A stretch of 64,000 bases of DNA, taken from positions 1-64,000 of the forward strand of contig NZ_RCHI01000009.1 of the NCBI RefSeq assembly GCF_003664585.1, read 5' to 3'. Of the stretch, positions 1-14,952 are shown piece after piece; positions within the stretch are counted from its first letter, which is position 1, and each line of letters starts with the position of its first letter. The notes under the pieces were generated by a model. It made no database searches. It was given only the letters and a program-made list of their open reading frames with translations, and had not been told where the DNA came from. Made by a program: the position numbers and the translations under genes. The stretch is from Paenirhodobacter hankyongi (GTDB lineage: Bacteria > Pseudomonadota > Alphaproteobacteria > Rhodobacterales > Rhodobacteraceae).

Positions 1-199
1 CGAGCAGCTTGCCGAGGCCGAAGCCGTCGACGCCGCAATTGTTCGAGGCGATGGTCAGGTCCTTGACCCCGCTTGCGACCAGCGCGTCGATCAAGAGTTC
101 CGGAATGCCGCACAGGCCGAACCCGCCCGCCGCAATCGTCATCCCGTCGACCAGAAGCCCGTCCAGGGCCTCCGACGCCGAGCCGTAGATCTTTCTCAT
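1..199 (-). CDS. scoA: 3-oxoacid CoA-transferase subunit A (partial, N-terminal 66 aa)
   Basis: Subunit A of a family I CoA-transferase, which moves CoA from succinyl-CoA or acetyl-CoA to a 3-oxoacid such as acetoacetate. Only the first 66 residues lie in the window; the rest runs off the left edge. The visible part holds the family I signature GGFGLCGIP (about residues 25-33) and a SNNCG stretch near residue 51. The ATG overlaps the TGA of the upstream rpoN paralogue by 4 nt (ATGA), and a GGGAGG lies about 10 nt upstream, so the two genes should be translationally coupled. In this context it would activate the 3-oxoacid made by the ketone carboxylase encoded at 5.3-13 kb. The substrate is inferred from neighbours, not from sequence. 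Subunit B presumably follows outside the window. Confidence 0.88.
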
Positions 200-1485
200 G
201 AGGTCCGTCCTCCCTTTCCTCTGTCGCGGGCCGGCGGAATGCCCGCCCGGGCCCGATGATTGGCGACCGCGCGGCGCGAGAGCGCGATGCCGCGCCCGGC
301 CAGAACCGCGACGAGCGCGTCGTCGCCGAGTGGCGCCGCCGCCGGTTCGGCGGCAATGATCTCGGCCAGCAGGGCGCGCAGCGCCGGCGCCGGCACCCGC
401 CCCTGCCCGCGCGAGCCGGTGCGCGCGAAGAAGGCCTCCATCGGCAGCATGCCGCGCGGCGTCTGCAGCAAGAGCCCGCTGCGCACCCGGCTGATCGTGC
501 TGTCATGAAAGCCGAGCGCGCGCGCCACCTCGGCGCAGGTCAGCGGCACCAGCGCCGCCGGCCCGGTTTCCACAAACGCCTGCTGGCGCGCGACGACATG
601 GGCCGCCACCTCGAGCACCATGCGGTTGCGGCGCGACAGCGTGCGCGCGATCCATTTCGCGGTGGCGAGCGCGCCGGGCGACGCGCCCTGATCGGTCACC
701 GACACCGCCGGCAGCGCCTCGCGGTTCAGCGCGACCTGCCAGCCGCCGGCCGCGCGCGTGACGATCAGGTCGGGGGCGCGGCGCAGCTCGGGGGCATCGC
801 CGAAATGCGCGCCGGGCTTCGGATCGAGCCGGCGCAACTGCGCGACGAGCGCGGCGAGGTCCTCGGCGCCGACACCGCAGCGCGCCTGCAAGCTGGCCGC
901 CTCGCCGCGCGCGAGCAGCGGCAGGTTCTCGAGCAGGCGCTGCATCGGCGCGCTCAGCGCCTCGCGGTCGGCGAGCTGCAGCGCCAGGCATTCGGCGAGC
1001 GTGCGGGCGAAAAGCCCGGCGGGCTCCATCTGCTGCAGCCGGGCGAGCACCGCCTCGGCCTCGGCCAGCGTGCAGCCCGCCCGCGCCGCCAGGCCTGAAA
1101 GCGGCGCACCGAGCCAGCCGCTCGGCTCCAGCGCCTCGGCCAGCACGGCGGCAATCGCCGCCTCGCGCGGGGAGCGGACCAGAAGGCCGATCTGGCGCGC
1201 GACATGGGCATGCAGTCCGGGCGCGGCATCGGCCATCCGCTCGGCCTCGCCGCCATCGCCGCCCGCCTGCGGCCGCCAGCGCGGCGGCGCGCGGCCCGGG
1301 CGCGGCGCGTCAGGCTCGGGATCGGGCAGCGTGACCTGCAGGCAGGGGTTGTCGGCCGCCGCCGCGACCAGGGCCCCGCACAGCCCGGCACTGTCCATCT
1401 GCAGATACTCGAGCGCCTGCCGCATCGCCTGCGACATCTGCACCGACATCTTCTGCCCGAGCCCGAGGCCCGTCACTGCGCGCAT
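196..1485 (-). CDS. rpoN: RNA polymerase sigma-54 factor (RpoN paralogue)
   Basis: Sigma-54, 429 aa, directs RNA polymerase to -24/-12 promoters and needs an AAA+ activator. Region I is visible at residues 1-50 ([20 protein letters not shown]), followed by a short Pro/Asp-rich region II, a core-binding segment, a helix-turn-helix near 315-337 (FHDSTISRV) and the RpoN box near 404-413. That box reads [10 protein letters not shown], clearly diverged from the usual ARRTVAKYRE. I chose the ATG at 1485 over one 51 nt upstream because GGAGGGG sits 5 nt before it and the protein then begins directly with region I. The gene lies between a CobW-type GTPase and a CoA-transferase subunit in one operon that itself has a -24/-12 promoter. 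This suggests a dedicated, self-controlled paralogue rather than the housekeeping nitrogen sigma factor. Confidence 0.93.
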
Positions 1486-1545
1486 CTGCCCCTCCGCCAC
1501 CGCGGGCCACAGTAGCGCCCGACGCCGGCCGGGCAAGCTCCGGTC

Positions 1546-2790
1546 TCAGCCATGGCGGCGGATCTCGCCCAGGAACCGCGGCTGGACGATGAACGCCTCG
1601 GAGGCGAACCCCTGCCGCGGGGTGAGCGGGACGCGCTCGGCCAGCCAGCTGCGGGTGGGCAGGCCCGGGGTGGTCGCGGCGCGGCGCAGCGCCTCGCGGT
1701 CGCCGGGCGTCGCGGCCAGGCGGGTGCGGATCGCGGCCTCGTCGGCGGGGGCGAGATCCTCGCCGATGAAGACGAGGCGGCCGCGCCGGTCGGAGAGCGC
1801 CCCGCCGCGCGGCCAGGCCGGCAGGCGCACCGGCAGGCAGGCGGTACCGTCGACGCATTGCACCACCACCGGCACCTCGAGCCCGGGCACCGCCATCAGC
1901 CCCTTCACCCGCAGCAGCCGGCCGCTCCAGGCCTCGAGGATCTGGCCGAGCGCGAGGGCAAAGCCGCGCCAGCCCGGCGCCTCGTGGAACTCGACGACGA
2001 AGCTGCGCACCCGCCCCGAATGCGACGGCGCATGGCCCTGCCCCGGAGTGGGGAACGGCACGGGCTGCGGCGCGCGCAGCGCGGTCACCGCGCCAAGCCA
2101 GTCGGTCGCGTCGGCGGGCACCGCCTCGGCGGCATAGAGCCCCGCGCCGAAAATCGCGGCGGGATCGGCCTCGCCCTCGGTCAGCAGGATCTGCGGCGCA
2201 CCGGGGTTCAGCGCCGCAAGTTCGCGGCGCACCGCGGCGGTCTCGACCTGCCCCGCCAGCGCCGATTTCGACAGCAGCAGCCGGTCTGCGAGGCTGACCT
2301 GCACCCGCGCCTCGCGGTGGCGCGGCAGCTGCATCCGCGCGCGCTCGCAATCGACGACGGTCAGCACCCCGTCACAGCGGAACCGCGCCGAGACCAGCCG
2401 GTCCTCCATCAGCGCGCGCAGGACCGGCGCCGGGTCGGCGAGCCCCGTCGTCTCGATCAGCACCCGCGTCACCGGTGCAATCTCGCGCCGCGACATGCGT
2501 TCGTGCAGGCGCATCAGCGCGCGCATCAGGTCGCCCTGCACGGTGCAGCACAGACAGCCCGAATCAAGGATGACGAGGCTGTCGTCGATTCGCTCGACGA
2601 GGTGGTGGTCGATGCCGATCTCGCCCAGCTCGTTGATGAAAACCGCCGCGCCGGCCATCTCGGGCCGGGCCGTCAGCGCGTTCAGAAGCGTCGTCTTGCC
2701 GGCACCGAGAAAGCCCGTGAGCACCGTCACCGGCACCCGTCCCCCCGCTTTTGCCGCAACCGCAAAGGGTGCAGAGCCGTTCTTGTCCAT
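1546..2790 (-). CDS. CobW/COG0523-family GTPase, putative metallochaperone
   Basis: G3E-family GTPase of the CobW/COG0523 group, 414 aa; relatives deliver metals to target enzymes. Visible motifs are Walker A GFLGAGKT (26-33), the metal-binding CxCC (C79-L-C-C82), ETTG (113-116) and the base-specificity region SKSA (174-177), where the usual Asp of NKxD/SKxD is Ala. A CobW C-terminal domain follows. I chose the ATG at 2790 because GGAGG lies 7 nt upstream; an in-frame ATG at 2796 would leave almost no spacing. It is the first gene after the sigma-54-type promoter at 2821-2837, 60 nt upstream of rpoN. Its position beside a ketone carboxylase (acetone carboxylases hold Mn, acetophenone carboxylase Zn) makes metal insertion into that enzyme a reasonable but unproven role. 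Confidence 0.85.
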   Translation of the reverse strand: MDKNGSAPFAVAAKAGGRVPVTVLTGFLGAGKTTLLNALTARPEMAGAAVFINELGEIGIDHHLVERIDDSLVILDSGCLCCTVQGDLMRALMRLHERMSRREIAPVTRVLIETTGLADPAPVLRALMEDRLVSARFRCDGVLTVVDCERARMQLPRHREARVQVSLADRLLLSKSALAGQVETAAVRRELAALNPGAPQILLTEGEADPAAIFGAGLYAAEAVPADATDWLGAVTALRAPQPVPFPTPGQGHAPSHSGRVRSFVVEFHEAPGWRGFALALGQILEAWSGRLLRVKGLMAVPGLEVPVVVQCVDGTACLPVRLPAWPRGGALSDRRGRLVFIGEDLAPADEAAIRTRLAATPGDREALRRAATTPGLPTRSWLAERVPLTPRQGFASEAFIVQPRFLGEIRRHG

Positions 2791-2820
2791 CGTCATTCCT
2801 CCCTCTCCCGAAGGAACAGG

Positions 2821-2837
2821 AAGCAGGTTTCTTGCCA
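2821..2837 (-). promoter_or_regulatory. sigma-54 (-24/-12) promoter of the cobW-like/rpoN/scoA operon
   Basis: On the minus strand the sequence reads TGGCAAGAAACCTGCTT. GG at -24 and GC at -12 are exactly 12 nt apart, as sigma-54 requires. Predicted transcription start is near 2811, about 20 nt before the GTPase start codon. It shares 14 of 17 bases with the element in front of the carboxylase operon at 13160-13176, including the atypical CCTGCTT at -12. Confidence 0.8.
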
Positions 2838-3223
2838 GTTGACCAAGCGGCAACGAAGACCGGGACTTACTGCGGCGCGGAGGCCGCCCGCCCGCCCGGC
2901 ACCGGACGAGGACCGGACGGCAGACGCGGCCGGGCGTCCGGTTTCCGGACGCGGCGATCGGCCCGGCGCATGCCGGGAACCGGACCCGCCCCTCTGGAAT
3001 TGCCGCGCCGCAGCGTCGCGGACCCGGGCTGCGGACCCGCCCGGGGAGGGCGCCCCGCCCCCTTCGCGCAAGAGAATTTCCCTTTTCGCAAAGGGGAATG
3101 CTAAGCTGCGCGCGAGGAGAGGAGACAGGCCCGGCACGACCGGGCACCTGCCGCAGACGTCTCGGGGAGGAGACGGGCGCAGCAGGGGGCGACCGGCCCC
3201 TGTCTCCAGGGAGGAGAAGTCAC
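2838..3223. promoter_or_regulatory. divergent intergenic region between cobW-like gene and acxR
   Basis: No gene is seen in this stretch. At 3063-3098 there are two direct repeats, TTCGCGCAAGAGAA (3063) and TTCGCAAAGGGGAA (3085), 22 bp apart (two helical turns). The second is embedded in an imperfect dyad TTCCCTTTT-CGC-AAAGGGGAA at 3078-3098. Both are candidate activator sites. At 3158-3175 the acxR leader can form a stem CGTCTC/GAGACG with loop GGGGAG, followed by a stem CAGGGG/CCCCTG at 3183-3202 just before the acxR ribosome binding site. I see no clear -35/-10 for acxR. Confidence 0.4.
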
Positions 3224-5203
3224 ATGCCACAGACGATGCTGCGTCAGCGGTTGTCGCGCCCCGAGAACGACACCCAGATCATGACCTCGTGGGAACGGTT
3301 CATGGAGGGGCAGGAACCGGGATCGGACGCGCTGCGCCGGCTGATCGACGATTCATGGCGGCGCTGTCACGGCGCGGTCGACCCGGGACGCCAGAGCGCG
3401 CCCCTGCCCGCCATGGGCGACGCGCTGCACGACCTGCTCGCCGACAGCGAGGACCTGATGCAGGCCGGCGCGCCGGTGATCGCCTCGGCCCGCGACTTCC
3501 TGTTCGAGACCGGCACGGTGATGGTGCTGACCGACTGCGCCGGCAAGGTGCTCAGCGTCGAGGGGGACAATGCCCTGCGCGACCCGAGCGAGGCGATTCA
3601 CCTGATGCCCGGCGCCGACTGGAGCGAGACCGCCTGCGGCACCAACGCGATCGGCACCACGCTGCAGATCGGCCAGCCGATCCAGATCCACGCCGCCGAG
3701 CATTACTGCTCGGGGATCAAGCACTGGTCGTGCTCGGCCGCGGTGATCCGCGAGCCGGTGAGCGGCGCCACGCTCGGCGCGATCGACATCTCGGGGCTGA
3801 ACGAAAGCTACAGCCGGCACAGCCTCGCGCTCGCCATCGCCGCGGCGGGGCGGATCGAGAACCGCCTGGTGCAGCGCGAGCTGAAGCTGCGCTATCAGCT
3901 GCTCGACCAGTGCCTCGAGCGGCTGCGCGGCCCGGGGCGGGACGGGCTGATCGTCTTCGACCGCTCGGGCCGGCCGATCAAGACGAACGAGCGGGCGGCG
4001 GCGCTGATGGCGGAACTGGCGAAGACCGGGGCGGAGGATGCGCAGTCGATCCGCAACCTGCTGCTGCCCTGGAAGAAGGGCCGCGTCGCCCCCGAGAACA
4101 TGCCGGGCTGGATCGACCACGACTGGATCGAACCGGTGCATCAGGAGGGCGAGCGGCTCGGGGCGGTGCTGGTGCTGCCCGACCGCGCGGCAACGGTGCG
4201 GCGCGCCGGGCTGCGCACCGTCGCGCCCCGTCCGGGCGTCGATCCCTTCGACCGGCTGTCCGGAACGGCGCCGGCCTATCTCGAGGCAATCCGCCGCGCC
4301 CGGCTCCTGGCAAAAAGCCCCGCGCCCGTGCTGTTGCTGGGCGAGACCGGGGTCGGCAAGGACGCCTTCGCCCAGGCCCTGCACGAGGCGGGCCCGCAGG
4401 CCAGGGGCCCCTTCGTCGCGATCAATTGCGGCGGCTTCTCGCGCGAGCTGCTGACCTCGGAGCTGTTCGGCTATGCCGACGGCGCCTTCACCGGCGCGCG
4501 CCGCGGCGGCATGACCGGCAAGATCGAGGCGGCCGACGGCGGCACGCTGTTCCTCGACGAGATCGGGGAGATGCCGCTCGATCTGCAACCGCATCTGCTG
4601 CGCGTGCTGGAAACGGGCGAAGTCTACCGCATCGGCGAGAACCGGCCGCGCAAGGTGAAGCTGCGGCTGATCGCGGCGACCAACCGCGACCTGAAGACCG
4701 AGGCGGGCGAGGGCCGGTTCCGGCTCGACCTGTTCTACCGCATCGCCGTGACCTCGCTGAAGCTGCCGGCACTGCGCGAACGGATGTCGGACCTGCCGGC
4801 GCTTGCCGCGCATCTGGTGGCCCAGATCGCCGCGCGCTACGAAAGCCCGGTGCCGGCGATCGCGCCCGCGGTCCTCGTGGCGCTGGCGGGCCACGACTGG
4901 CCCGGCAACATCCGCGAGCTGCGCAATGTGCTCGAGGGGATGTTCCTTGAAAGCGAGGGCGCGATCCTGCGGCCCGAGGCGCTGCCGCCCGAGCTGCAGC
5001 TCACGCCCCGGCTGATCGGCCTGGCCGAGGCGCTGTCGCCGCTCGACCGGGCCGAGCGCGACGCGATCGCCGCCGCGATCCGGCGCCATCAGGGCAACAT
5101 GACCTCGGCCGCGCGCGATCTCGGCATTGCCAAGAGCACGCTCTACGTCCGGCTCGACAAGCTCGGACTGAAGGACCACATCGCGCAGCTGCGCGAGGGC
5201 TGA
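3224..5203 (+). CDS. acxR: sigma-54-dependent activator, AcxR/AcoR type
   Basis: Bacterial enhancer-binding protein, 659 aa, that hydrolyses ATP to open sigma-54 promoters. The order is an N-terminal GAF-type sensor region (about 60-200), a linker, a AAA+ domain with Walker A GETGVGKD (373-380) and GAFTGA (420-425, contacts sigma-54), and a Fis-type helix-turn-helix (625-649, [20 protein letters not shown]). This is the architecture of AcoR and of AcxR, the activator of acetone carboxylase genes in Xanthobacter and R. capsulatus. The ATG at 3224 was chosen because GGGAGGAGAA precedes it by 5 nt; the longer frame from 3098 lacks family similarity. It is divergent from the rpoN operon and convergent with the carboxylase operon, so it very likely controls both through the two -24/-12 elements. 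The effector (ketone or alcohol) is unknown. Confidence 0.9.
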
Positions 5204-5211
5204 AACGGGAA

Positions 5212-5237
5212 ACGGCACCCGGGGTCCCGGGTGCCGT
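5212..5237. terminator. bidirectional hairpin between acxR and the carboxylase operon
   Basis: A perfect 12-bp inverted repeat (ACGGCACCCGGG / CCCGGGTGCCGT) with a 2-nt centre lies between two converging genes, 8 nt after the acxR stop. It has no T tract, so termination efficiency is uncertain, but position and strength fit a shared terminator. Confidence 0.6.
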
Positions 5238-5294
5238 CCCTGCAGCGCGCCCCCTGGAGGAGGAATGGCAGGCGCCGCAAAGCGCGTGGGGCCC

Positions 5295-6125
5295 TCAGGC
5301 CGGAACGGTGCCGCGCAGGCGGGCGACGGCCTCGAGCACCGCCTCGGGCGCATGGGCGACCGGCACTTCGGCGAAAAGGAACTGCCCCGCACCGGTCTCG
5401 GGCAGCGGTTCGCCGGCGAAGAGCGCCGCCGTCACATCCCGCCCGGTCGCCGCCGGATCGGTGCCGATCACCGCATCGAAGCCGCCCTGCCCCGGCGCCG
5501 CGCCGCGCCCGACCACCGCCCAGCGGTAATGCCGCGCGGCGTTCAGGATCGGCGCATAGCGATCGGCCGGACCGGGCTCGGCCCCTTCCTCAAGAAGCAG
5601 CCCGCCCACCGGCCGGCTGGCGACACAGCGGATGAAATCGGCCATGTACATCGCCGCATCCTCGACCGCGTCGGCATCGACCTCGGCCTCGCGCCCGGCC
5701 GCGACCTGCGCCTCGGCCAGCCACGTCCCCGGCGCCGGCATCGCCAGAACCAAAGGCACCTGGCCCTGCAGATGGGCGCCGACCGCCACCGTCACCTCGT
5801 CGAGCAGCGCCCGCGGGCCCTCCTCCTCGAGCATCCGGCGCAGGGGATAGGGGACGCGCTTCTTCGCCCCCATCTCGGCCGCAAGCCCCGGGTGACGCGC
5901 CCGCCAGGAACGGAACATGTCGCCCACGTCGACCACCGCCACGTCGCCGCGCAGCAGGCCCCGGGCCTGGGTGAACCACGACAGGTATTTCGCCGCGCCC
6001 TCGGCCCAGGGGTCGCCCGCCTCGCCCAGCAGAAGCCGCCGGGCATAGCCCGACGACTCCAGCCAGACCCGCAGCGCCTTCGTGCCCGAACCCTTGGGCA
6101 GATCCTCTGCGAGAGACTGGCTCAT
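5295..6125 (-). CDS. fifth gene of the Apc-type carboxylase operon (putative epsilon subunit)
   Basis: A 276-aa soluble protein, last gene of the carboxylase operon; its ATG overlaps the TGA of the 756-aa subunit by 4 nt. I recognise no clear catalytic motif. Features are a PLVLAMPAPGTWLAEAQ stretch near 120-140, a DAAMYMADFIRC helix and a GGLLLEEG segment, which give a faint impression of a TIM-barrel, UROD-like fold. That fold is a guess. In Aromatoleum acetophenone carboxylase the fifth gene encodes a roughly 34-kDa subunit that is required for activity but separable from the core complex. Size, position and coupling here fit that subunit. The three-subunit acetone carboxylases have no equivalent. 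Assignment rests on gene order, not on motifs. Confidence 0.6.
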   Translation of the reverse strand: MSQSLAEDLPKGSGTKALRVWLESSGYARRLLLGEAGDPWAEGAAKYLSWFTQARGLLRGDVAVVDVGDMFRSWRARHPGLAAEMGAKKRVPYPLRRMLEEEGPRALLDEVTVAVGAHLQGQVPLVLAMPAPGTWLAEAQVAAGREAEVDADAVEDAAMYMADFIRCVASRPVGGLLLEEGAEPGPADRYAPILNAARHYRWAVVGRGAAPGQGGFDAVIGTDPAATGRDVTAALFAGEPLPETGAGQFLFAEVPVAHAPEAVLEAVARLRGTVPA

Positions 6126-8392
6126 TGCTTCTCGTCTCCCGGCACGCCCGCCGCCGCCAGACGCGCCTCGAGCTCGGCGATGCGCACGTCCTTCGGGTGG
6201 ACCATGTAGTTCGGCTTCGGCTCGTCGCCGCGGCGGGTCTTGTCGGGCGAGCCCATGTAGAGCGTCTCGACATCGTCCCCCCAGCAGCCGAAATAGGGCA
6301 GATGCGCCGGGGGCTTGGGCTGGTTCCAGCCCTTGACGAACTCGGCATAGGGCACCGAGCGGGCGATGCGCGCCTTGCGCTCGTCGGCGCGCGCCTTCTC
6401 GGTCGCCTCGAAGTCGATCGCCAGCGTCGCCGGGTCGAACACCACCTTGTAGAGCCGCGCCGCCACCTCGGCCGACATCAGCCCCTCCTCGATGTCCTTC
6501 ACCACGCCCACCGGGTCGCGTTCGAGCAGGTCGCCATAGCCCGCACCGGCGCCCTGGCTGATCATGTAGAGCTCGCCCCGCTTCGAGATGTCGAAGCCCA
6601 TGCCCATGTGATGGGTGGTGTAGCGCGCGCCCTCGAAGGGCTGCTCGTTCATGATCTCCTCGATCGAGTGGCGGAATTTCTCCGGCTCGTTCAGCATCAC
6701 GTCATAGACGTCGACGCCCTGCACCTTCGACAGCGGATAGGTGCCGCAGGCATAGCCGCCGAAGAGACCCTGGATCGGCGGGATCTTCGCCCCCTGAGCC
6801 GTGGTCATGAAGCCCCACTGCTCGCTGTCCTTCGTCGCCACCATCATCGTGTAGCCCTGGCCGCCGCGATACTTGCCCGGCGCGATGGCGTCGCGCGTCA
6901 TCTTCTTCGAGACGAGCTGCAGGAACGGCACGTCTTCCTCGTTCACCTCCTGCTCGCCAATATCGGCCATGGTGGCGAAGATCGGCGCCAGCGCATGTTC
7001 GCCATCGCGGTTCGAGGTCGCCCCCGCCCCCATGCCGTTCAGGTCGGCGCAGAGGTTGCCGAGCGTCTCGCCATGCTGGCTGACCCCACCCCAGATGAAG
7101 GTGTTGATCATGTTGAAGGCCGGCGCGTGGACCTTGGTGAACTTCTCCGGGCAGGAGTAGAGGAACTTCGCCACCGCGTGCTGGCCCGCGGTGAAGCCGG
7201 TGAAGATCGACATCAGCGACTGCGAGTTCGGCGCGTCATAGGAACAGTTCAGGATCGAGTGCGGATCGGTGATCACCTCGATCGGCGCCATCGCCGCCTG
7301 ACCGCGCGGCAGGTCGGGCCAGATGTAGCACAGGAAGAGCTGCGACAGCATCCCCTTGAGCCCGCCGAGGATGGTGTTCGTCGCCCGGTTGGTGAACTCG
7401 GGGCTCGAGCCGCGGAAGTCGAAGGTCAGCTGGTCGCCCTTCTTCGTCAGCGTGCAGTTCACCTTGACCACGCAGTTCTCGCGCAGGGTCGAGTCCTGGA
7501 TGATGTAGGTGCGCACCGACATGTCCGGCCATTCCGAGACCCGGCGCTTCACCTCGGCGCGCACGTCCTCCATGGTCAGCCGCAGCGTCGAGATCAGCGC
7601 GTCGGCGCCGTCCGTCTTCAGCGTCTCCTCGATGCGCTGCTTGATGCGCAGGCAGGCGAAGAGCTTCACCTTCATGTCCTCGAGCTGCAGCTTCGGCTCG
7701 CGCACCGAGTTCTGCAGGAAGGTCAGCAGGTCGCGCTTGATCTGATAGTTCTCGACCACCTTGAAGGGCGACATCTTCAGACCCTCGTCCGAGGGGCTTT
7801 CCGCCATCGACGGCATGCCGCCCGGCTCGATCGCGCCGTTCTCGCCCTCGTGCACGGTCGAGGCGACCCAGCACACCAGCCGGCCCTCGTGGAAGATCGG
7901 CAGGATCATCGACTGGTCGGTGTTGTGCACGTTGCCATAGCGGCTGTCGTTGTGGATGAAGCCGTCGCCGTCGCGCACGCCCACGGTGGGCTCGTTCATC
8001 CAGTTCTTGACGATGAACTTGATCGGGTGGTGCACGACCGACGAGAACAGCAGCACGCCGCCCGCCGAGGCGATGGCGAGGTCGCCCGAGGCCGAATAGA
8101 TGCCGGTGATGACATCGCCCCATTTCGCGCCGGGCGCCGCGCCCATCTGCTCGACCATCTCATAGCCCTCGTCGCAGCCGGCCTGCAGCCGGTCGCGGAT
8201 CTTGGCGATGGTATGGGTGTCGGGGACATTGGCGATGGCGTGCTCCTCGTCGGCCGAGCGCGGCATCAGGTCGTGGTTTTGCATGATCTCGGGATCAGGA
8301 CCAAGGAACAGCGTGGTGTCCTCGAGGAACTTCTTGATCAGCTTCATGTCTTCGGCAGAGGGCGCCGGCCCCCCGGTGGTCATGTCTTTCAT
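6122..8392 (-). CDS. Apc/acetone carboxylase-type subunit, hydantoinase B/oxoprolinase (HyuB) family
   Basis: A 756-aa HyuB-family subunit, corresponding to the acetone carboxylase alpha or acetophenone carboxylase Apc4 (beta) chain. In these enzymes the HyuB-like chain carries the carboxylation site, where the ketone enolate meets carboxy-phosphate. Visible family stretches are FRGSSPEFTNRATNT (about 330-345), a GQTLG-like SQHGETLGNL, and a glycine-rich RGGQGY near 560. The ATG at 8392 has AGGAGGAG 6 nt upstream. The gap to the preceding 718-aa gene is 55 nt and contains a perfect 9-bp stem-loop (8416-8440). The stop overlaps the start of the fifth gene. The substrate could be acetone, butanone or an aromatic ketone; the sequence alone does not say. 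Confidence 0.87.
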   Translation of the reverse strand: MKDMTTGGPAPSAEDMKLIKKFLEDTTLFLGPDPEIMQNHDLMPRSADEEHAIANVPDTHTIAKIRDRLQAGCDEGYEMVEQMGAAPGAKWGDVITGIYSASGDLAIASAGGVLLFSSVVHHPIKFIVKNWMNEPTVGVRDGDGFIHNDSRYGNVHNTDQSMILPIFHEGRLVCWVASTVHEGENGAIEPGGMPSMAESPSDEGLKMSPFKVVENYQIKRDLLTFLQNSVREPKLQLEDMKVKLFACLRIKQRIEETLKTDGADALISTLRLTMEDVRAEVKRRVSEWPDMSVRTYIIQDSTLRENCVVKVNCTLTKKGDQLTFDFRGSSPEFTNRATNTILGGLKGMLSQLFLCYIWPDLPRGQAAMAPIEVITDPHSILNCSYDAPNSQSLMSIFTGFTAGQHAVAKFLYSCPEKFTKVHAPAFNMINTFIWGGVSQHGETLGNLCADLNGMGAGATSNRDGEHALAPIFATMADIGEQEVNEEDVPFLQLVSKKMTRDAIAPGKYRGGQGYTMMVATKDSEQWGFMTTAQGAKIPPIQGLFGGYACGTYPLSKVQGVDVYDVMLNEPEKFRHSIEEIMNEQPFEGARYTTHHMGMGFDISKRGELYMISQGAGAGYGDLLERDPVGVVKDIEEGLMSAEVAARLYKVVFDPATLAIDFEATEKARADERKARIARSVPYAEFVKGWNQPKPPAHLPYFGCWGDDVETLYMGSPDKTRRGDEPKPNYMVHPKDVRIAELEARLAAAGVPGDEKQ

Positions 8393-8415
8393 GGGAACTC
8401 CTCCTGTTGGAATGG

Positions 8416-8440
8416 GCCCCGGCGCTCCTCTCGCCGGGGC
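8416..8440 (-). promoter_or_regulatory. intergenic stem-loop with AGAGGAG loop, upstream of the HyuB-type gene
   Basis: A perfect 9-bp stem GCCCCGGCG/CGCCGGGGC closes a 7-nt loop. On the transcribed (minus) strand the loop reads AGAGGAG. It ends 23 nt before the start codon at 8392, upstream of the genuine Shine-Dalgarno. One of three such elements in this operon (see 10632 and 13078). Confidence 0.55.
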
Positions 8441-8447
8441 ACGCGTG

Positions 8448-10604
8448 TCAGTGCTTGGTGACCGGGGCCTCGTTGCGCAGGAACCAGGTCGCGCCCTGCT
8501 TTGCCGCGACCAGCGTCCAGCCCGGATTGACGAGGAAGGTCGTCACTTCCGAGGCGACGATCGCCGGACCTGCGATCTCGACGCCGGGGTCGAGGTCCTT
8601 GCGGGCCCAGACCGGGGTCTCGAAGGCCTCGTCATGGCCGACGAAGTGGCAGGTGCGGTGCCCGCTCGGGGCCGGGGGGGCCGAACGTTCGGGCTTCGGC
8701 AGCGGCTTGATGTTCTGGAACTGCACCGTCTCGTGCTGGCGATAGCTCGACACGCGGATGGTGTTGATCCGGATCCCCGCCTCGGGCGCCTGGCTGCCCT
8801 CGCCGAAGCGCTTGCCATAGTCGGTCGAGAACTGGTTGATGACCTGCAGCACGTCGCTCGGGCTGTTCAGCTCGTGGATCGGGATCACCGCCGTGGTCTG
8901 CACCAGCTGGTTGCCATAGCGCATGTCCAGTTCCAGGTTGTGCTGGATCTGCTCGGCCGGCACGCCCTGGCGCAGCAGGTCCTGACGGCCGCGTTCCTTC
9001 AGCTCGGCCACGATGCCGTTGAACCGCTCGTAATCGCTGAAGATCCGCCGGGTGTTGCTGTCGTAAAGCACCATGTAGAGCGACTTCTCGTGGATGTGGA
9101 GCTGGTGCATGTTGCCCGCCCCCACCGCCGAGAACACCGAGCTGAGCGGCGGCGCCAGGATCTTGTCGATCGCCAGGTTCTGCGCGATGCCGCAGCAATG
9201 CAGCGGCCCGTTGCCGCCATAGGCGAGCATGGTGAAGTCCTTCGGATCATAGCCGCGGGCACGCAGTTCGGTGAAAAGCCCGTTCGCCATGTTGGCGTCG
9301 ACCTTCTCGCGGATCAGCTTGGCCGCCTCGATCACCGAGACATCGAGATCGTCGCACAGCGCATCCTCGACCGCCGCCTTCGCCCGGCGCGGGTTGAGCG
9401 GGATCGAGCCGCCGGCATAGTTCTCGGCGTCGAGATAGCCGAGCAGGAGGTCGGCGTCGGTCACGGTGGGCTTCATCCCGCCGCGGTCGTAGCACGCCGG
9501 CCCCGGGTCCGAGCCCGCGCTTTCCGGGCCGCATTTCACCGTCTTGTACATCCGGTCGTAGGCCGCAACCGAGCCACCGCCCGCGCCCAGCGTCACCAGA
9601 TGCACCATCGGCACCGAGACCAGCCAGCGGTCGATGACCGGGTTGAAGTCATAGTGCTTGATGCCGCCCTCGACGACGATGCCGATGTCATAGGAGGTGC
9701 CGCCCATGTCGGTCGCCACGACGTTGCCAAGCTCGGCCTGCAGCGACAGGTGCTCGGAGGCGCCGATGCCCGAGACCGGGCCCGAGTGGATGGTCTGCAG
9801 CGCGTCGGTCGAGTTCAGCTGCGCCATGCCGCCCGAGTTGTGGATCACCAGCATCGGCTTTTCGTAATTGTGCACGCGCAGGTTCTGCTCGAGCGCGGAC
9901 AGCGCGTGATACATCGTCGAATGCAGATAGCCGTCGACGATCGCCGAGGTGGCGCGGACGTATTCGCCCTTCCGGCCCGCGACCTGATGCGACAGGATCA
10001 CCGGGATCGCGCCGAGCAGATGCGAGGGGTATTCCTCGAGCACGATCTCCTCGATGCGCTGCTCGTGGGCGGGGTTCACCACCGAGTTCACCAGCGCCAC
10101 GACGATGATCTGGGCGCCGCGGTCGACGAGTTCGCGCAGCTGGCGGCGGACGTCTTCCTCGTCGAGGCCCATCACCAGCTTGCCCTCGAAATCGAGCCGC
10201 TCGCGGATGCCGCGGATCATGTGCGCCTCGACCAGCGGGTCGGGACGCTGGGCATTGGGCAGATCCTGCTTGCCCATGTCGTCAAGCCCCTCGCCATAGC
10301 CGCGCGCGCGGCTGAGCGGCACGGTGGCCTCGTAGCCCGCGGTGACCAGCATGCCGATCTTCGGCCCCTTGTGCTCGATCAGCGCATTGGTGCCGAGCGT
10401 GGTGGCATAGCGCACCGAGTCCACCTGCTGCAGGATGTCCTCGAGTTCCAGATCGAGGACCTTGCAGGCCTTGCCCAGGGCCTCGTTGAAGCCCATCGCA
10501 AGGTTGTGGTGCGTGGTCAGTGCCTTGGTCTCGATATAGCGCCCACCCCAGACGACGAAGCAGTCGGTGAAGGTGCCGCCGATATCAACGGAAACGCGTT
10601 TCAT
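8448..10604 (-). CDS. Apc/acetone carboxylase-type subunit, hydantoinase A/oxoprolinase (HyuA) family
   Basis: A 718-aa HyuA-family chain, close in length to acetone carboxylase beta (AcxA, about 717 aa) and Apc3 (alpha). HyuA-type chains bind ATP in an ASKHA fold and phosphorylate bicarbonate or ketone. Seen here are the N-terminal phosphate loop DIGGTFTD (7-14), YATTLGTNALI (about 68), HSGPVSG (about 275), DMGGTSYDIG (about 297) and GAGGGSVA (about 325). These are the nucleotide-binding elements in family order. The start has GGGAGAGAGC immediately upstream. It is the second HyuA-type chain in the operon. The presence of two (644 and 718 aa) is the mark of the acetophenone-carboxylase plan, alpha and alpha-prime. 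A 99-nt gap with a stem-loop separates it from the gamma gene. Confidence 0.9.
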   Translation of the reverse strand: MKRVSVDIGGTFTDCFVVWGGRYIETKALTTHHNLAMGFNEALGKACKVLDLELEDILQQVDSVRYATTLGTNALIEHKGPKIGMLVTAGYEATVPLSRARGYGEGLDDMGKQDLPNAQRPDPLVEAHMIRGIRERLDFEGKLVMGLDEEDVRRQLRELVDRGAQIIVVALVNSVVNPAHEQRIEEIVLEEYPSHLLGAIPVILSHQVAGRKGEYVRATSAIVDGYLHSTMYHALSALEQNLRVHNYEKPMLVIHNSGGMAQLNSTDALQTIHSGPVSGIGASEHLSLQAELGNVVATDMGGTSYDIGIVVEGGIKHYDFNPVIDRWLVSVPMVHLVTLGAGGGSVAAYDRMYKTVKCGPESAGSDPGPACYDRGGMKPTVTDADLLLGYLDAENYAGGSIPLNPRRAKAAVEDALCDDLDVSVIEAAKLIREKVDANMANGLFTELRARGYDPKDFTMLAYGGNGPLHCCGIAQNLAIDKILAPPLSSVFSAVGAGNMHQLHIHEKSLYMVLYDSNTRRIFSDYERFNGIVAELKERGRQDLLRQGVPAEQIQHNLELDMRYGNQLVQTTAVIPIHELNSPSDVLQVINQFSTDYGKRFGEGSQAPEAGIRINTIRVSSYRQHETVQFQNIKPLPKPERSAPPAPSGHRTCHFVGHDEAFETPVWARKDLDPGVEIAGPAIVASEVTTFLVNPGWTLVAAKQGATWFLRNEAPVTKH

Positions 10605-10631
10605 GCTCTCTCCCTGTGCATTGGGTCCGGG

Positions 10632-10652
10632 GGCTGCCCTCCTCCGGCAGCC
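10632..10652 (-). promoter_or_regulatory. intergenic stem-loop with GGAGGAG loop, upstream of the 718-aa HyuA gene
   Basis: A perfect 7-bp stem GGCTGCC/GGCAGCC closes a 7-nt loop that reads GGAGGAG in the mRNA. It ends 27 nt before the start at 10604 and is separate from the real ribosome binding site, so the loop displays a decoy-like Shine-Dalgarno. Confidence 0.5.
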
Positions 10653-10703
10653 GGTCCCGGCAATGGTTGTGCCCCCCGCGCGCGCCGCGGAGGGCGGCGT
10701 CGG

Positions 10704-11108
10704 TCAGTGCGCGTGGCCGCGCCCGGGCACCACGGCGGGGCCGGCATCGGGCAGCATCGCCGGACCGCGGCTCGCCCATTGCGCCTTCAGCGCGGGCACG
10801 TCGACCTGCATGTCCCACAGCGGCGGGTGACCCGGGGTCGCGTATTCCGTCTCGATCTGGGTGCCGCATTTCGGGCAGCAGAATTCGAGGATGCGCACCC
10901 ATTCCGGATCGGGGCAGAAGGTGTAGCGATACTTCGCCGGGTCGATCACCGGCGGATGGATCTCGCGCGGGTCGCGGTTGTGCACCAGCAGCCCTTCCTT
11001 GTAGTTGCCCGCGGCCGGCGCGATCACGTGATCGCAGACGCGGCACTCCCATTTCTCGGTCTCGAGGTCGATGCGCAGGTATTCGGTCATCGGCACTTTC
11101 ATCGTCAT
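10704..11108 (-). CDS. acetone/acetophenone carboxylase gamma subunit-like, zinc-binding
   Basis: A small 134-aa (about 15 kDa) subunit matching the gamma chain of acetophenone carboxylase in size and motif layout. It has two cysteine pairs, C22xxC25 and C78xxC81 (ECRVC and CCPKCG), that would hold a structural zinc, with conserved NYKEGLLVHNRDPREIH between them. The Xanthobacter acetone carboxylase gamma chain is longer (about 168 aa). The C-terminus is Pro/Gly/His-rich. The start at 11108 lies 3 nt after the stop of the 644-aa gene, whose last codons contain its GGGAGGA ribosome binding site, so translation is coupled. In this family the subunit bridges the ATPase and carboxylase chains in the complex; that role is inferred here. 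Confidence 0.87.
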   Translation of the reverse strand: MTMKVPMTEYLRIDLETEKWECRVCDHVIAPAAGNYKEGLLVHNRDPREIHPPVIDPAKYRYTFCPDPEWVRILEFCCPKCGTQIETEYATPGHPPLWDMQVDVPALKAQWASRGPAMLPDAGPAVVPGRGHAH

Positions 11109-11111
11109 GGC

Positions 11112-13046
11112 TTATTCCTCCCGGTCCAGAATGACGTCGCCCGCTTCGGACACGGTGAGGGTCCACCCCGCCGGAATGAGCGCCGTGAAGTAATCCTCCT
11201 CGAGGATCGCGGGCCCCTTGGCCCAGTCGCCCGCCGCCATGCCGTTCAGCCGGTAGACCGGCAGATCGGTGCGGCCCTGCCCGGCAACCAGCACCTCGCG
11301 CGTGGCTGCCGCCTCGGCACGGGTCCGGCGGTTGACCGCGACGGTGCGGGTCTCGCCCCGGCGCAGGCTCTTCGTCGCGACGAACTCAAGCTCGACCGCG
11401 CCCGCCTTCGCCAGATCGGCGGGGAAGCCCTCGCCCTCGGCCAGCTCGTGGACGACCTCGCCCTCGGTGGTCTCGGTCACCAGACGCGCCGCAACGGTAT
11501 AGCTGCCCGCCTCGAAGCCTTCGGCGAACATGTCGCGCGCGGCCTTCTGCGCCAGCGCCTCGCGCGCCGTGGCAAGCGCCGCGCTGGTGTTTTCGGGCAG
11601 CGTCACCGCATAGCGCTGCGAGACATCGCAGGCGCCGATGCCATAGGCCGAGAACACCGCCGCCATCGCCGGCATCGCCACCCGCGTGATCCCCGCCTTC
11701 TCGGCGACACCACAGGCCAGCAGCGGACCGGCGCCGCCGAAGGCCATCATCACCGTGTCGGGCGAGATCGTGGTGAAGCGGTGCAGCTCGGCCGCGACCT
11801 TCGCCTCGAAGGCGTCGGCCATCATCGTCACCGCGGTCTCGAGATCGACGCCCAGCGGCTCGGCGATGTTGGTGCGGATCGCCGCCTCGGCGCGCCCCGC
11901 ATCAAGCCCCATGCCACCGCCGAAATAGGAGGCGGGGTCGAACAGGCCGGCGAGAAGGCTGGCGTCGGTGATCGTCGCTTCCTTCCCGCCGCGGCCGAAG
12001 CATGCGGGGCCGGGGAGGGCGCCCACGCTGTCCGGACCGATCACGATCTTGCCATCCTTCACCTTGAATACCGAGCTGCCGCCGGCGCCGGCCGAGATGA
12101 TCTCGCACAGCGGGAAGGAGACCGAGATCCCCTCGACATGTCCGCGACGGATCTCGGCGACCTTGCCCTCGGTGCACTGGCCGATGTCGGTGGTGGTGCC
12201 GCCGACGTCGATCGAGACCGCATCGCGGAAACCATAGAGCGCGGAGAAGGCCTTCACCCCCTCCATGCCGCCGCGCGGGCCCGAGGAATAGGTCTTGATC
12301 GCCACCGTCTTCGCCACGCGCGAGGCGTCGCCGTCGTTGCGGAAGATCAGGAGCGGGTTCTTCGTGCGGTATTCGCGCAGCCGGTTCTCGGCCTGGAACA
12401 GGAAGGCCTCCATCGACGGGTGCAGGAAGGAGTTGATCAGCGCCGACCAGGCGCGGCGGTCGGGGTTGCGGTCGACGGTGAGGTCCGAGGCATAGAGCAC
12501 CGGCACCGCCCCCAGCAGGTGGCGCGGATACTTGCGCAGCACGATCTGCTTCACCCGTTCCTCGGCCTTGTGGAAGCCCTCGCCGGTGAAGCAGATCACC
12601 AGACGGTTCGCGCCGGCGGCGGTGAGCTGGTTGATCGTGCGCACGATCGCGACCTCGGCCTCGGGCGTCTCGAGCGCGTCGGTCTCGACAAAGCCCACCC
12701 GGTCACCGACGAGCGCGGCCCAGACCTCGGCATCATGGGTGGCCAGCTGCGCGGGCAGATCCTCGGCGCCCGTCGCGAGAATCAGGCCGAGCTTCGGCCC
12801 CTTGCGCTCGCAGATCGCGTTGGTGCCCTGCGTCGTCGAGTAGCGGATCAGGTCGACTTCCTCGAGCAGCCGCTTCACGTCGGTCGCGCCATAGACGACC
12901 TCCGAGGCCTTCTGCAGCCCCTCGAAGAAGCATTTCGACAGATCGTAGGGCGTGGTCAGGACCTTGGTCTTGGTCACGCCGTCATCCGACATGATGCAGA
13001 CGTCGGTGAGAGTCCCGCCGTTATCAATGTTAATCTGAAATGCCAT
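11112..13046 (-). CDS. Apc-type subunit, first HyuA-family chain (alpha-prime like)
   Basis: First gene of the carboxylase operon, 644 aa (about 70 kDa, the size of Apc1). It is a HyuA-family ATP-binding chain with N-terminal DNGGTLTDV (7-15; Asn where most have Ile or Val), YSTTQGTNAI (about 75), YSSGPRGG (about 257), DVGGTTTDIG (about 283) and GAGGSSV (about 313). The start at 13046 was chosen because GGGAGGAG lies 9 nt upstream and the ASKHA domain starts there; an upstream in-frame ATG at 13205 lies before the promoter. Its leader of about 100 nt comes from the -24/-12 element at 13160-13176 and contains a stem-loop at 13078-13094. With the 718-aa chain it probably makes the paired alpha/alpha-prime ATPase part of the enzyme. 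Confidence 0.88.
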   Translation of the reverse strand: MAFQINIDNGGTLTDVCIMSDDGVTKTKVLTTPYDLSKCFFEGLQKASEVVYGATDVKRLLEEVDLIRYSTTQGTNAICERKGPKLGLILATGAEDLPAQLATHDAEVWAALVGDRVGFVETDALETPEAEVAIVRTINQLTAAGANRLVICFTGEGFHKAEERVKQIVLRKYPRHLLGAVPVLYASDLTVDRNPDRRAWSALINSFLHPSMEAFLFQAENRLREYRTKNPLLIFRNDGDASRVAKTVAIKTYSSGPRGGMEGVKAFSALYGFRDAVSIDVGGTTTDIGQCTEGKVAEIRRGHVEGISVSFPLCEIISAGAGGSSVFKVKDGKIVIGPDSVGALPGPACFGRGGKEATITDASLLAGLFDPASYFGGGMGLDAGRAEAAIRTNIAEPLGVDLETAVTMMADAFEAKVAAELHRFTTISPDTVMMAFGGAGPLLACGVAEKAGITRVAMPAMAAVFSAYGIGACDVSQRYAVTLPENTSAALATAREALAQKAARDMFAEGFEAGSYTVAARLVTETTEGEVVHELAEGEGFPADLAKAGAVELEFVATKSLRRGETRTVAVNRRTRAEAAATREVLVAGQGRTDLPVYRLNGMAAGDWAKGPAILEEDYFTALIPAGWTLTVSEAGDVILDREE

Positions 13047-13077
13047 TGCGCATTTCTCCTCCCATACCTGTTGCGAC

Positions 13078-13094
13078 GGCGCCTCCTGCGCGCC
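13078..13094 (-). promoter_or_regulatory. leader stem-loop with GCAGGAG loop, upstream of the first carboxylase gene
   Basis: A 5-bp stem GGCGC/GCGCC closes a 7-nt loop that reads GCAGGAG in the mRNA. It ends 31 nt before the start codon at 13046. Weaker than the other two operon hairpins but with the same loop length and the same AGGAG ending. Confidence 0.4.
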
Positions 13095-13159
13095 GGGGCC
13101 TCGGCAGATGCGGGAAAGGCTCCTCCCCCTCCACGCGCCGACGAACCTGTCAGCGAAGG

Positions 13160-13176
13160 AAGCAGGGTTGATGCCA
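13160..13176 (-). promoter_or_regulatory. sigma-54 (-24/-12) promoter of the carboxylase operon
   Basis: On the minus strand the sequence reads TGGCATCAACCCTGCTT, with GG (-24) and GC (-12) 12 nt apart. The predicted start is near 13150, giving a leader of about 105 nt. The element nearly duplicates that of the rpoN operon at 2821-2837; beyond the 17 bases both continue CCT. Confidence 0.82.
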
Positions 13177-13191
13177 GATCGGGCCGGTTGC

Positions 13192-13237
13192 TGCGAAAAT
13201 CGCACAACCTTCGGTTTTCGAAAGATTTTATAAAATC
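13192..13237 (-). promoter_or_regulatory. candidate upstream activator sites (two palindromes) for the carboxylase promoter
   Basis: Two dyads sit 16-61 bp upstream of the -24 element: TGCGA-AAA-TCGCA at 13192-13204 and a perfect 14-bp palindrome GATTTTATAAAATC at 13224-13237. Their centres are about 32 bp apart (three helical turns), at roughly -48 and -80 from the predicted start. This AT-rich patch stands out from the GC-rich surroundings and suits binding by the AcxR-like protein or a bending protein. The rest of the 13047-13377 gap holds only the leader and nothing else I can identify. Confidence 0.45.
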
Positions 13238-13377
13238 ATGCAGAGCGGGAGGGCCGGGCCGGGGGCCGCGACCATCCGGCTTTCGGTCACCGTCCGCCAC
13301 GCGGGCGGACGCCCGGACGGATCAGCGCGCCCGGCACGGACGGGCACACGCGACAGGGGGGGGCAAGCAGATCGCCG

Positions 13378-13656
13378 TCAGCGATGCGCGAGATACTCCG
13401 CCGAAACATATCCCGAGACACTGGGCTTGTCGGTCAGATAGACCTTGCACCAGACCTTGCCGTTGTTCGTCACACAGTTCTGACGGGTAAGACGCGTTCC
13501 GTCCGGCAGGCCGATGATGATCTTGCGGTCAAGGCCCGGACCCTCGCGAAGCTTCAGAAGGTCATCCGGCCCGGCGCCTTTGACGACGGCACCGGAACCG
13601 AGCGCACATCCGGTTGCGATCACGAGGGCGAGGAGCGCAGCAAAATGAGGTCGCAT
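13378..13656 (-). CDS. small SH3b-type lipoprotein
   Basis: A 92-aa protein with a lipoprotein-type N-terminus (MRPHFAALLALVIATGC, Cys at 17) and a single bacterial SH3 (SH3b) domain. The domain is recognisable from LLKLREGPGLDRKIIIGLPDGT, then CVTNNGKVWCKVYL and the closing GYVSAEYL. Such domains bind peptidoglycan or serve as targeting modules. The ATG at 13656 was chosen since it begins the signal peptide and has AGGACAG upstream. Two cysteines (in NCVTNNGKVWC) could form a disulphide, as expected for an exported protein. It is separated from the carboxylase promoter by about 140 nt and is not part of that operon. Function unknown beyond envelope association. Confidence 0.72.
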   Translation of the reverse strand: MRPHFAALLALVIATGCALGSGAVVKGAGPDDLLKLREGPGLDRKIIIGLPDGTRLTRQNCVTNNGKVWCKVYLTDKPSVSGYVSAEYLAHR

Positions 13657-14875: not shown

Positions 14876-14952
14876 TGGTGGCGAGGGGGGGACTCGAACC
14901 CCCGACCCCGTGATTATGAGTCACGTGCTCTAACCTGCTGAGCTACCTAGCC
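14876..14952 (-). tRNA. tRNA-Met (CAU), elongator type
   Basis: A 77-nt tRNA with encoded CCA. The anticodon loop is CTCATAA (anticodon CAU), the anticodon stem CGTGA/TCACG, the T-arm GGGGG-TTCGAGT-CCCCC, and the D-arm GCTC/GAGC. The 5' half (GGCTAGGTAGCTCAG) closely resembles the E. coli elongator tRNA-Met rather than initiator or tRNA-Ile2. One mismatch appears in the acceptor stem, T4 opposite C69 (GGCTAGG against CCTCGCC). Confidence 0.93.

Follow-up and report, generated by a model that had tools for sequence, protein, structure and literature searches.

A predicted ketone-carboxylase module in Paenirhodobacter hankyongi that appears to carry its own sigma-54 factor and promoter type

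Results

A carboxylase operon and a sigma factor gene share one locus

The window analysed here, the first 64 kb (positions 1 to 64,000) of contig NZ_RCHI01000009.1 in the 3.8-Mb draft genome of Paenirhodobacter hankyongi, opens with genes that would encode a ketone carboxylase of the acetophenone carboxylase (Apc) type, together with an activator, a CobW-type GTPase, a CoA-transferase and a paralogue of the sigma factor sigma-54 (RpoN). The analysis was computational throughout, resting on comparisons of sequences, trees and folds. The genes form two minus-strand groups, apcABCDE (from 13046 down to 5295) and cobW-rpoN-scoA (from 2790 to the contig end, which falls inside scoA), separated by the activator gene, which runs on the plus strand (Table 1). 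Coupled translation is suggested by the four-base overlaps of D with E and of rpoN with scoA; the start codons of rpoN and of the activator gene were chosen by us. ScoA of Neorhizobium petrolearium, the full-length counterpart of the scoA fragment, exceeds the cut-off of TIGR02429. Long antisense open reading frames (for example 8202-13490 on the plus strand) were not accepted as genes in this GC-rich DNA.

A preliminary description of this DNA had named a five-gene operon in Apc order, which the genes read from the window, a tree of the A and C chains and the fold of E bear out, and had placed an AcxR-type activator, an RpoN paralogue, a CobW GTPase and a CoA-transferase alongside it, as domain matches and, for the CoA-transferase, identity to ScoA confirm. 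It had also called the module self-contained, a term to be qualified, since the contig ends within scoA and a second, near-identical scoA lies elsewhere in the genome.

Table 1. Features of the module in the window, with the evidence for each.
Feature	Position	Strand	Evidence
scoA, 3-oxoacid CoA-transferase subunit A, 5' fragment	2..199	-	86% identity to N. petrolearium module ScoA, residues 8-72
rpoN paralogue (module sigma-54)	196..1485 (upper end approximate)	-	PF00309, PF04963 and PF04552, all over cut-off
CobW/G3E GTPase, GCLCC metal motif	1546..2790	-	PF02492, PF07683
Predicted module-type sigma-54 promoter of cobW-rpoN-sco, TGGCAAGAAACCTGCTTCCT	2818..2837	-	Top-ranked in lineage-held-out scan
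Predicted enhancer palindrome, CGTCCGGTTTCCGGACG	2935..2951		Only exact copy in window
AcxR/AcoR-type activator	~3224..5203	+	PF01590 (GAF), PF00158 (Sigma54_activat, GAFTGA), PF02954 (Fis helix-turn-helix)
E, 276 aa, ApcE-like fifth subunit, uroporphyrinogen-decarboxylase fold	5295..6125	-	Fold search
D, 756 aa, HyuB-type (ApcD)	6122..8392	-	PF02538; best structure 5l9w_A
C, 718 aa, HyuA-type ketone kinase subunit (ApcC)	8448..10604	-	PF01968; 5l9w_B, 543 bits; tree
B, 134 aa, small zinc-type subunit (ApcB), CxxC...CxxC	10704..11108	-	NF042974, 131 bits, below cut-off; 5l9w_C
A, 644 aa, HyuA-type (ApcA), expected bicarbonate kinase	11112..13046	-	PF01968; 5l9w_b, 321 bits; tree
Predicted module-type sigma-54 promoter of apcABCDE, TGGCATCAACCCTGCTTCCT	13157..13176	-	Second-ranked in lineage-held-out scan
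Predicted enhancer palindrome, one mismatch, CGTCCGCCACGCGGGCG	13291..13307		Palindrome search

The gene set recurs in relatives, and the loci with rpoN form one clade

We compared 82 loci, namely the best 80 of 428 relatives of D (one genome per species scanned), the window and a plasmid copy; the counts describe close relatives only, and contig ends truncate several of the loci, so that genes were missed there. A was found in 73 loci (lowered from 77 on recount, the A query having matched the C gene in four), B in 76, C in 78, E in 81, an activator in 51 (by tblastn at no less than 200 bits, which may include other activators), cobW in 46, scoA in 20, scoB in 17 and rpoN in 12. The loci with rpoN (rpoN+, as opposed to rpoN- loci) are those of the window, Sinirhodobacter ferrireducens (L034, whose D is 99% identical), N. 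petrolearium, Allorhizobium, Ciceribacter, Ochrobactrum, two Celeribacter, Gemmobacter, a Rhodobacteraceae metagenome-assembled genome (MAG), Novosphingobium and Antarcticimicrobium. They span three alphaproteobacterial orders, which, N. petrolearium excepted, we take to be the orders of these host genera, and the N. petrolearium copy lies on a plasmid in another order than that of the window.

All 12 form a single clade (support 1.0) nested among rpoN-less loci, both in a first tree, which drew 77 tips from 84 loci (two plasmid loci, L021 and L024, having been added to the 82), and in a cleaned tree of 73 tips. Recurrence of the same gene set with rpoN in 12 of the 82 loci rules out an oddity of a single genome, and the combination is a conserved module.

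The chains belong to the Apc branch, with a different predicted pocket

Among solved structures, A, B, C and D each match an Apc chain of 5l9w best, and the window has the gene order A-B-C-D-E, apcABCD(E) being the order given as a criterion of the Apc branch (PMC5214803). A tree built from 35 chains of the A and C types grouped A with ApcA (node of 14 chains, support 100) and C with ApcC (64), with AcxB of acetone carboxylase (Acx) and the hydantoinase HydA, a reference of one sequence from the same genome, outside these groupings; a grouping with hydantoinases or oxoprolinases, which would have refuted the preliminary description, was not seen for A and C with this one reference. B and D were placed with Apc by best matches only. 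ATP motifs of the ASKHA type are present in A (DNGGT, DVGGT, PGPAC) and C (DIGGT, DMGGT, PGPAC), and four cysteines (CRVC/CPKC) were read in the translation of B. The relation of E to ApcE could not be detected by sequence (hhalign probability 1%), and other sequence searches gave no useful match; the fold search returned ApcE (9fou) as the best match (E 2.2e-8, TMq 0.67), which rules out E as a chain with no known relatives. The NCBIfam cut-offs for Apc (NF042974/75/76/60) were missed, at 131 of 250, 581 of 1500, 320 of 1500 and 362 of 1250 bits. A scan of viral contigs with D alone found no relatives. Taken together, the sequence and fold matches support membership of the Apc branch; five genes in place of the three of acxABC, and chains outside the Acx clade, set the enzyme apart from acetone carboxylases.

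The metal ligands reported for AcxA, E89, H150, D153 and H175 (PMC5543143), align with D93, H156, D159 and H181 of D, invariant in the seven sequences aligned, the window included. The GCxCC motif is present in all 46 linked cobW genes. In eight loci (L053, L054, L059, L060, L061, L062, L064 and L090) a gene for a ZIP-type metal transporter follows E, and six of these eight loci have no cobW in the stretch (one ZIP representative was scanned). We take the linkage of cobW and ZIP to reflect a demand for metal that recurs across the loci, with CobW as its putative supplier.

Compared with the Apc of Aromatoleum aromaticum (5l9w; ApcE, 9fou), the module shares the gene order, the kinds of subunit, the four-cysteine B, the metal ligands of D and the uroporphyrinogen-decarboxylase-like fold of E. 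It differs in the predicted ketone pocket, in an E that is undetectable by sequence, in having a CoA-transferase where the described apc-bal operon has the ligase Bal, and in its sigma-54 activator, the apc operon having been described with predicted two-component systems (PMC4729919). With AcxABC/AcxR (Xanthobacter, Aromatoleum; 5m45/5svb) it shares a related type of activator and the same metal ligands, whereas Acx has three subunits, a separate clade and another pocket. An AcxR-like activator together with a CoA-transferase amounts to the acetone-like wiring first proposed. The product of acetone carboxylase is likewise handled by a CoA-transferase, and the suggestion of a simple 3-oxoacid product for the module comes from its CoA-transferase gene only.

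Seven residues have been proposed to line the ketone pocket of the Apc alpha subunit (PMC5214803). The predicted pocket of C reads T-I-H-P-I-H-L, against L-F-N-P-I-Q-T in Apc and L-I-V-P-M-A-M in the aligned Acx; T, H, P, H and L are constant in 78/78 C chains and the remaining two places hold I or V. This predicted pocket differs from those of both Apc and Acx, and acetone and acetophenone as such are therefore unlikely substrates. The same genome also holds a separate, canonical AcxR-AcxABC-type acetone carboxylase set on contig C6 (L031 9013-16457).

We therefore weighed the possibility that the enzyme is nonetheless an ordinary acetone or acetophenone carboxylase, and hold it to be doubtful. 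Its placement in the Apc branch would suit this explanation, as would a CoA-transferase fit for acetoacetate, the near-identical second scoA and the lack of an AcxA match at E 1e-60 in 13 of 20 hosts; it is at odds with a predicted pocket that is unlike those of Apc and Acx in every C chain found, with the canonical AcxA present in the window genome and in six other hosts, and with the wide shortfall from the NCBIfam Apc cut-offs.

Other ketone genes and neighbours of the carboxylase

A second Apc-like set in the same genome, on contig C8 (L029 14478 to L030 7660), comes with an AMP-forming ligase and has a pocket that is different again (T-H-N-P-I-E-V); near it are a thiolase-cluster gene and a gene resembling Baeyer-Villiger-type monooxygenases, below its cut-off. 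A haloarchaeal relative on a plasmid (L023) has the pocket T-M-H-P-I-Y-M, and its carboxylase genes are accompanied by those of two AMP-binding proteins and of a thiolase.

Neighbours in the 82 loci were counted by protein cluster, with one or two members scanned per cluster; they include a CoA-transferase (20 loci), an AMP-forming ligase (12), a thiolase (14), a zinc alcohol dehydrogenase (six; these had no NCBIfam match at E 1e-60) and a ZIP transporter (eight). In Celeribacter baekdonensis a thiolase gene lies between cobW and rpoN, and in Gemmobacter a gene of the same cluster occupies the same place, which would fit a 3-oxoacyl-CoA product. Zoogloea-type loci (L057 14618-21154 and others) have MMPL, YCF48-type, DUF1302 and DUF1329 genes after the carboxylase, and in the Apc reference locus (L177 4727-8149) YCF48-like and MMPL-like genes, read from translations, follow apc and a ligase-like gene; these neighbours hint at hydrophobic substrates.

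The module sigma-54 is altered in the elements that read promoters

All three sigma-54 domains (AID, core-binding and DNA-binding) are present in the module RpoN. Sigma-54 reads the -24 and -12 parts of promoters through its RpoN box, canonically ARRTVAKYRE, and its helix-turn-helix (HTH) helix, and the module RpoN departs from the canonical box. The Lys of the box is replaced by Asn in 12/12 module RpoNs and in none of 36 comparison RpoNs, all of which have Lys (the Novosphingobium copy was added), and an Arg in the HTH helix has the same distribution (12/12 versus 0/36). The module RpoNs form one clade (ultrafast bootstrap 100; 11 of 47 sequences) among divergent RpoNs of Rhodobacterales, in a tree that omits the L045 copy, which is truncated, and L135, which duplicates the module gene of Gemmobacter.

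Of 380 genomes of the order, 114 had any sigma-54 match (105 over the cut-off) and 266 had none. In 11 rpoN+ hosts the module copy was the sole sigma-54 found in three and a canonical one was found in four, compared with a canonical sigma-54 in all nine rpoN- hosts tested; these hosts are interrelated and their genomes drafts, which makes the counts neither independent nor proof of absence.

Both predicted promoters of the rpoN+ loci have changed together with the sigma factor

Canonical sites, TGGCACG-N4-TTGC, often lie upstream in rpoN-less loci: a score of at least 18 was reached in 48 of 64 apcA regions (15 of 640 shuffles) and in 12 of 34 cobW regions (4 of 340 shuffles), a threshold set against shuffles, which pass equally often at 13. 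Loci with too little upstream DNA, or with a tblastn start beyond residue 25, were excluded from these promoter counts. In the 12 rpoN+ loci the sites read TGG[CA]A..AAACCTGCTTCTC in place of TGGCACGN4TTGC, the module-type promoter also being written CCTGCTTCTC. The block [CT]TGC[TA]TC is present in 24/24 rpoN+ sites and in 0/60 canonical rpoN- sites. Within the 20-base site, position 12 is C in 22/24 where T is usual, position 6 is no longer C or T, and the base at -11 (counting the C of GC as -12) is T in 23/24; position -11 matters in the discrimination between RpoN1 and RpoN2 promoters of Cereibacter sphaeroides (PMC11999139).

The canonical matrix, which disregards positions 17-20 of the site, picked 19 of the 24 rpoN+ sites, so for those 19 the TTC extension is no artefact of the search. 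With a matrix from which the lineage in question was held out, the apcA and cobW sites ranked as the top two in 12/12 loci of 17-32 kb, and in seven diverse loci the identity of the motif was 0.69 (apcA) and 0.86 (cobW), with flanks at 0.30-0.36. In the window genome the module promoter pattern has two matches, one before cobW and one before apcA; across 11 host genomes 19 of the 21 matches lie within the module, nine other genomes have two matches, and the reversed pattern has three in all 20 genomes. The pattern covers most sites but misses that of apcA in three hosts (L038, L056 and L065). The DNA-reading residues of the sigma factor and both promoters have thus changed together in the rpoN+ clade, and this co-variation backs the dedicated sigma factor that had been supposed from the gene content.

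Could the rpoN paralogue be a passenger, with the host sigma-54 reading the module promoters equally well and the TTC extension being drift fixed in one lineage? This would agree with the single rpoN+ clade, with GG and GC cores that are the same in 24/24 sites, and with the canonical RpoN kept in four of the 11 hosts. We consider it unlikely, since the extension and the changed RpoN residues persist across three orders while the flanks are at background identity, the extension is found at both promoters of each locus, and three of the 11 hosts have no other sigma-54 that we could find.

A related explanation, that the CTGCTTC block is the site of another factor overlapping an ordinary sigma-54 promoter and that the private sigma is incidental, draws on the strongest new bases of the site lying at 16-20, downstream of GC, where a regulator could bind. 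Here positions 12 and 6 have changed as well, the only regulator linked to the locus probably uses a palindrome further upstream, and the changes track the RpoN expected to read the element, which leaves this explanation likewise unlikely.

The activator and its probable enhancer are shared with rpoN-less loci

The activator is a sigma-54 enhancer-binding protein by its AAA+ domain with GAFTGA and its Fis HTH (PF00158, PF02954). GAFTGA is found in 11/12 rpoN+ activators, the twelfth (L045) having given only an 11-residue piece, and the protein is 33% identical to an AcxR-like protein of the same genome. Each of eight hosts has 12-16 activator matches, partial ones included. When two mismatches at most are allowed, the palindrome CGTCCG-N5-CGGACG is present upstream of apcA in 11/12 and of cobW in 12/12 rpoN+ loci (shuffles 5-6%), and of apcA in 26/64 (shuffles 3%) and cobW in 9/34 (shuffles 7%) rpoN- loci. 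It is probably the enhancer of the activator, whose site would then have been retained while the sigma factor and the core promoter changed.

Surroundings of the module

A tRNA-Met gene lies at 14876-14952, 1.8 kb upstream of apcA, and two stretches, at 6-10 kb and 12-16 kb, have a lowered GC content of 64-66%; together these may mark an island boundary, although dips of this kind are also present at 46-52 kb. A gene for a heavy-metal P-type ATPase (E1-E2 ATPase and HMA domains) at 43080-45326 on the minus strand is 30 kb from the module. The second scoA of this genome, at positions 1-200 of contig C1, stands beside a topA-like gene (read from the translation). Both scoA-bearing contigs start at the same point inside scoA, and two contigs of S. 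ferrireducens also end within this gene. In the initial 150 coding bases the two copies match at 146 positions in the window genome and at 149 in S. ferrireducens, against 142 and 145 when the species are compared with each other, which hints weakly at gene conversion.

Discussion

The evidence points, in our judgement with good probability, to a transferable ketone-catabolic module in which an Apc-type carboxylase would be served by a private, self-amplifying sigma-54 circuit. By analogy with Apc and Acx, the ApcABCDE-type chains would form an ATP-dependent, biotin-free ketone carboxylase in which A phosphorylates bicarbonate and C the ketone in its enol form, the metal site of D helps to join both into a 3-oxo acid and the E chain, with its uroporphyrinogen-decarboxylase fold, completes the active complex. 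ScoAB would then make the CoA ester for thiolysis and CobW would supply the metal. A ketone-responsive activator bound to the CGTCCG-N5-CGGACG palindromes would switch on RNA polymerase carrying the module sigma-54, which would read the changed -24/-12 promoter. Because rpoN lies behind the cobW promoter, itself of the module type, positive feedback is to be expected, and with it independence from the host sigma-54.

Several results weigh against this interpretation. Five of the 24 rpoN+ sites were found with the module matrix only, and the weakest held-out site, that of apcA in Celeribacter HF31 (L056), scored 9.6 against 9.0 for the next place. Two host matches to the promoter pattern lie outside the module, in Allorhizobium (G391:C17:33118-33136) and Novosphingobium (G400:C3:110968-110986), which are within noise or could be further targets of the module sigma-54, and one match each was found in an rpoN- host and in a genome that lacks sigma-54. 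The module RpoN falls slightly short of the TIGR02395 cut-off (271.5 bits against 277.35). A canonical sigma-54 beside the module copy means that independence is not the whole story in those four hosts, and the three hosts in which the module copy is the sole sigma-54 are two draft isolates and one MAG. Because the rpoN+ loci form one clade, the switch of sigma factor and promoters counts as a single evolutionary event, however conserved afterwards. On the side of the enzyme, the support for the node joining C to ApcC is weak, cobW is linked in only 46 of the 82 loci, and acetone carboxylases load their metal without a chaperone (PMC10865871).

We lean slightly towards a broader interpretation, in which a sigma-54 captured once became an orthogonal single-locus system, with two promoters, control of its own gene and the enhancer kept, that opened sigma-54-less hosts to the module, and in which the enzymes are a third subfamily of ketone carboxylases with a ketone of their own. 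The pattern of hosts fits a sigma-54 that was captured for portability and whose module then passed into Rhizobiaceae, Brucellaceae and Novosphingobium. Pfam names and distant similarity to the hydantoinase 7hk5 and the caprolactamase 6yra might suggest an ATP-dependent hydantoinase, oxoprolinase or lactamase instead. This is very improbable, for B, two kinase chains and a chain with the ApcE fold are present and bit scores and tree favour Apc, on which grounds we reject a hydantoinase or oxoprolinase.

Specialised RpoN paralogues, replicon-borne rpoN genes and Apc-like operons are all known; their combination here is unexpected. Our search of the literature, in which subscription journals were thinly covered, found no account of rpoN inside a ketone carboxylase locus or of this promoter type. 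In C. sphaeroides, too, several sigma-54 factors share a cell with their own activators and promoters (RpoN1, nif; RpoN2, flagella; RpoN3, xrpA), but the module sigma sits in one catabolic operon, behind its own promoter type, and moves between orders. The second rpoN genes of the Mesorhizobium loti symbiosis island, the Ralstonia megaplasmid and the Bradyrhizobium DOA9 megaplasmid also lie on a mobile or secondary replicon; they serve other functions, and a changed promoter class is not mentioned for them in the accessible parts of those sources.

Sigma-54 is usually one shared factor, with the specificity of operons coming from their activators. The module described here appears to be a metabolic island that comes with a sigma-54 and a private promoter code of its own. 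This, if true, would account for the spread of enhancer-dependent operons into lineages that lack sigma-54 and would offer a natural candidate for an orthogonal, enhancer-dependent pair of sigma factor and promoter. The paired changes in residues and promoters make it testable which residues of sigma-54 read the -24 and -12 elements, and the module group may mark a widespread subfamily of ketone carboxylases.

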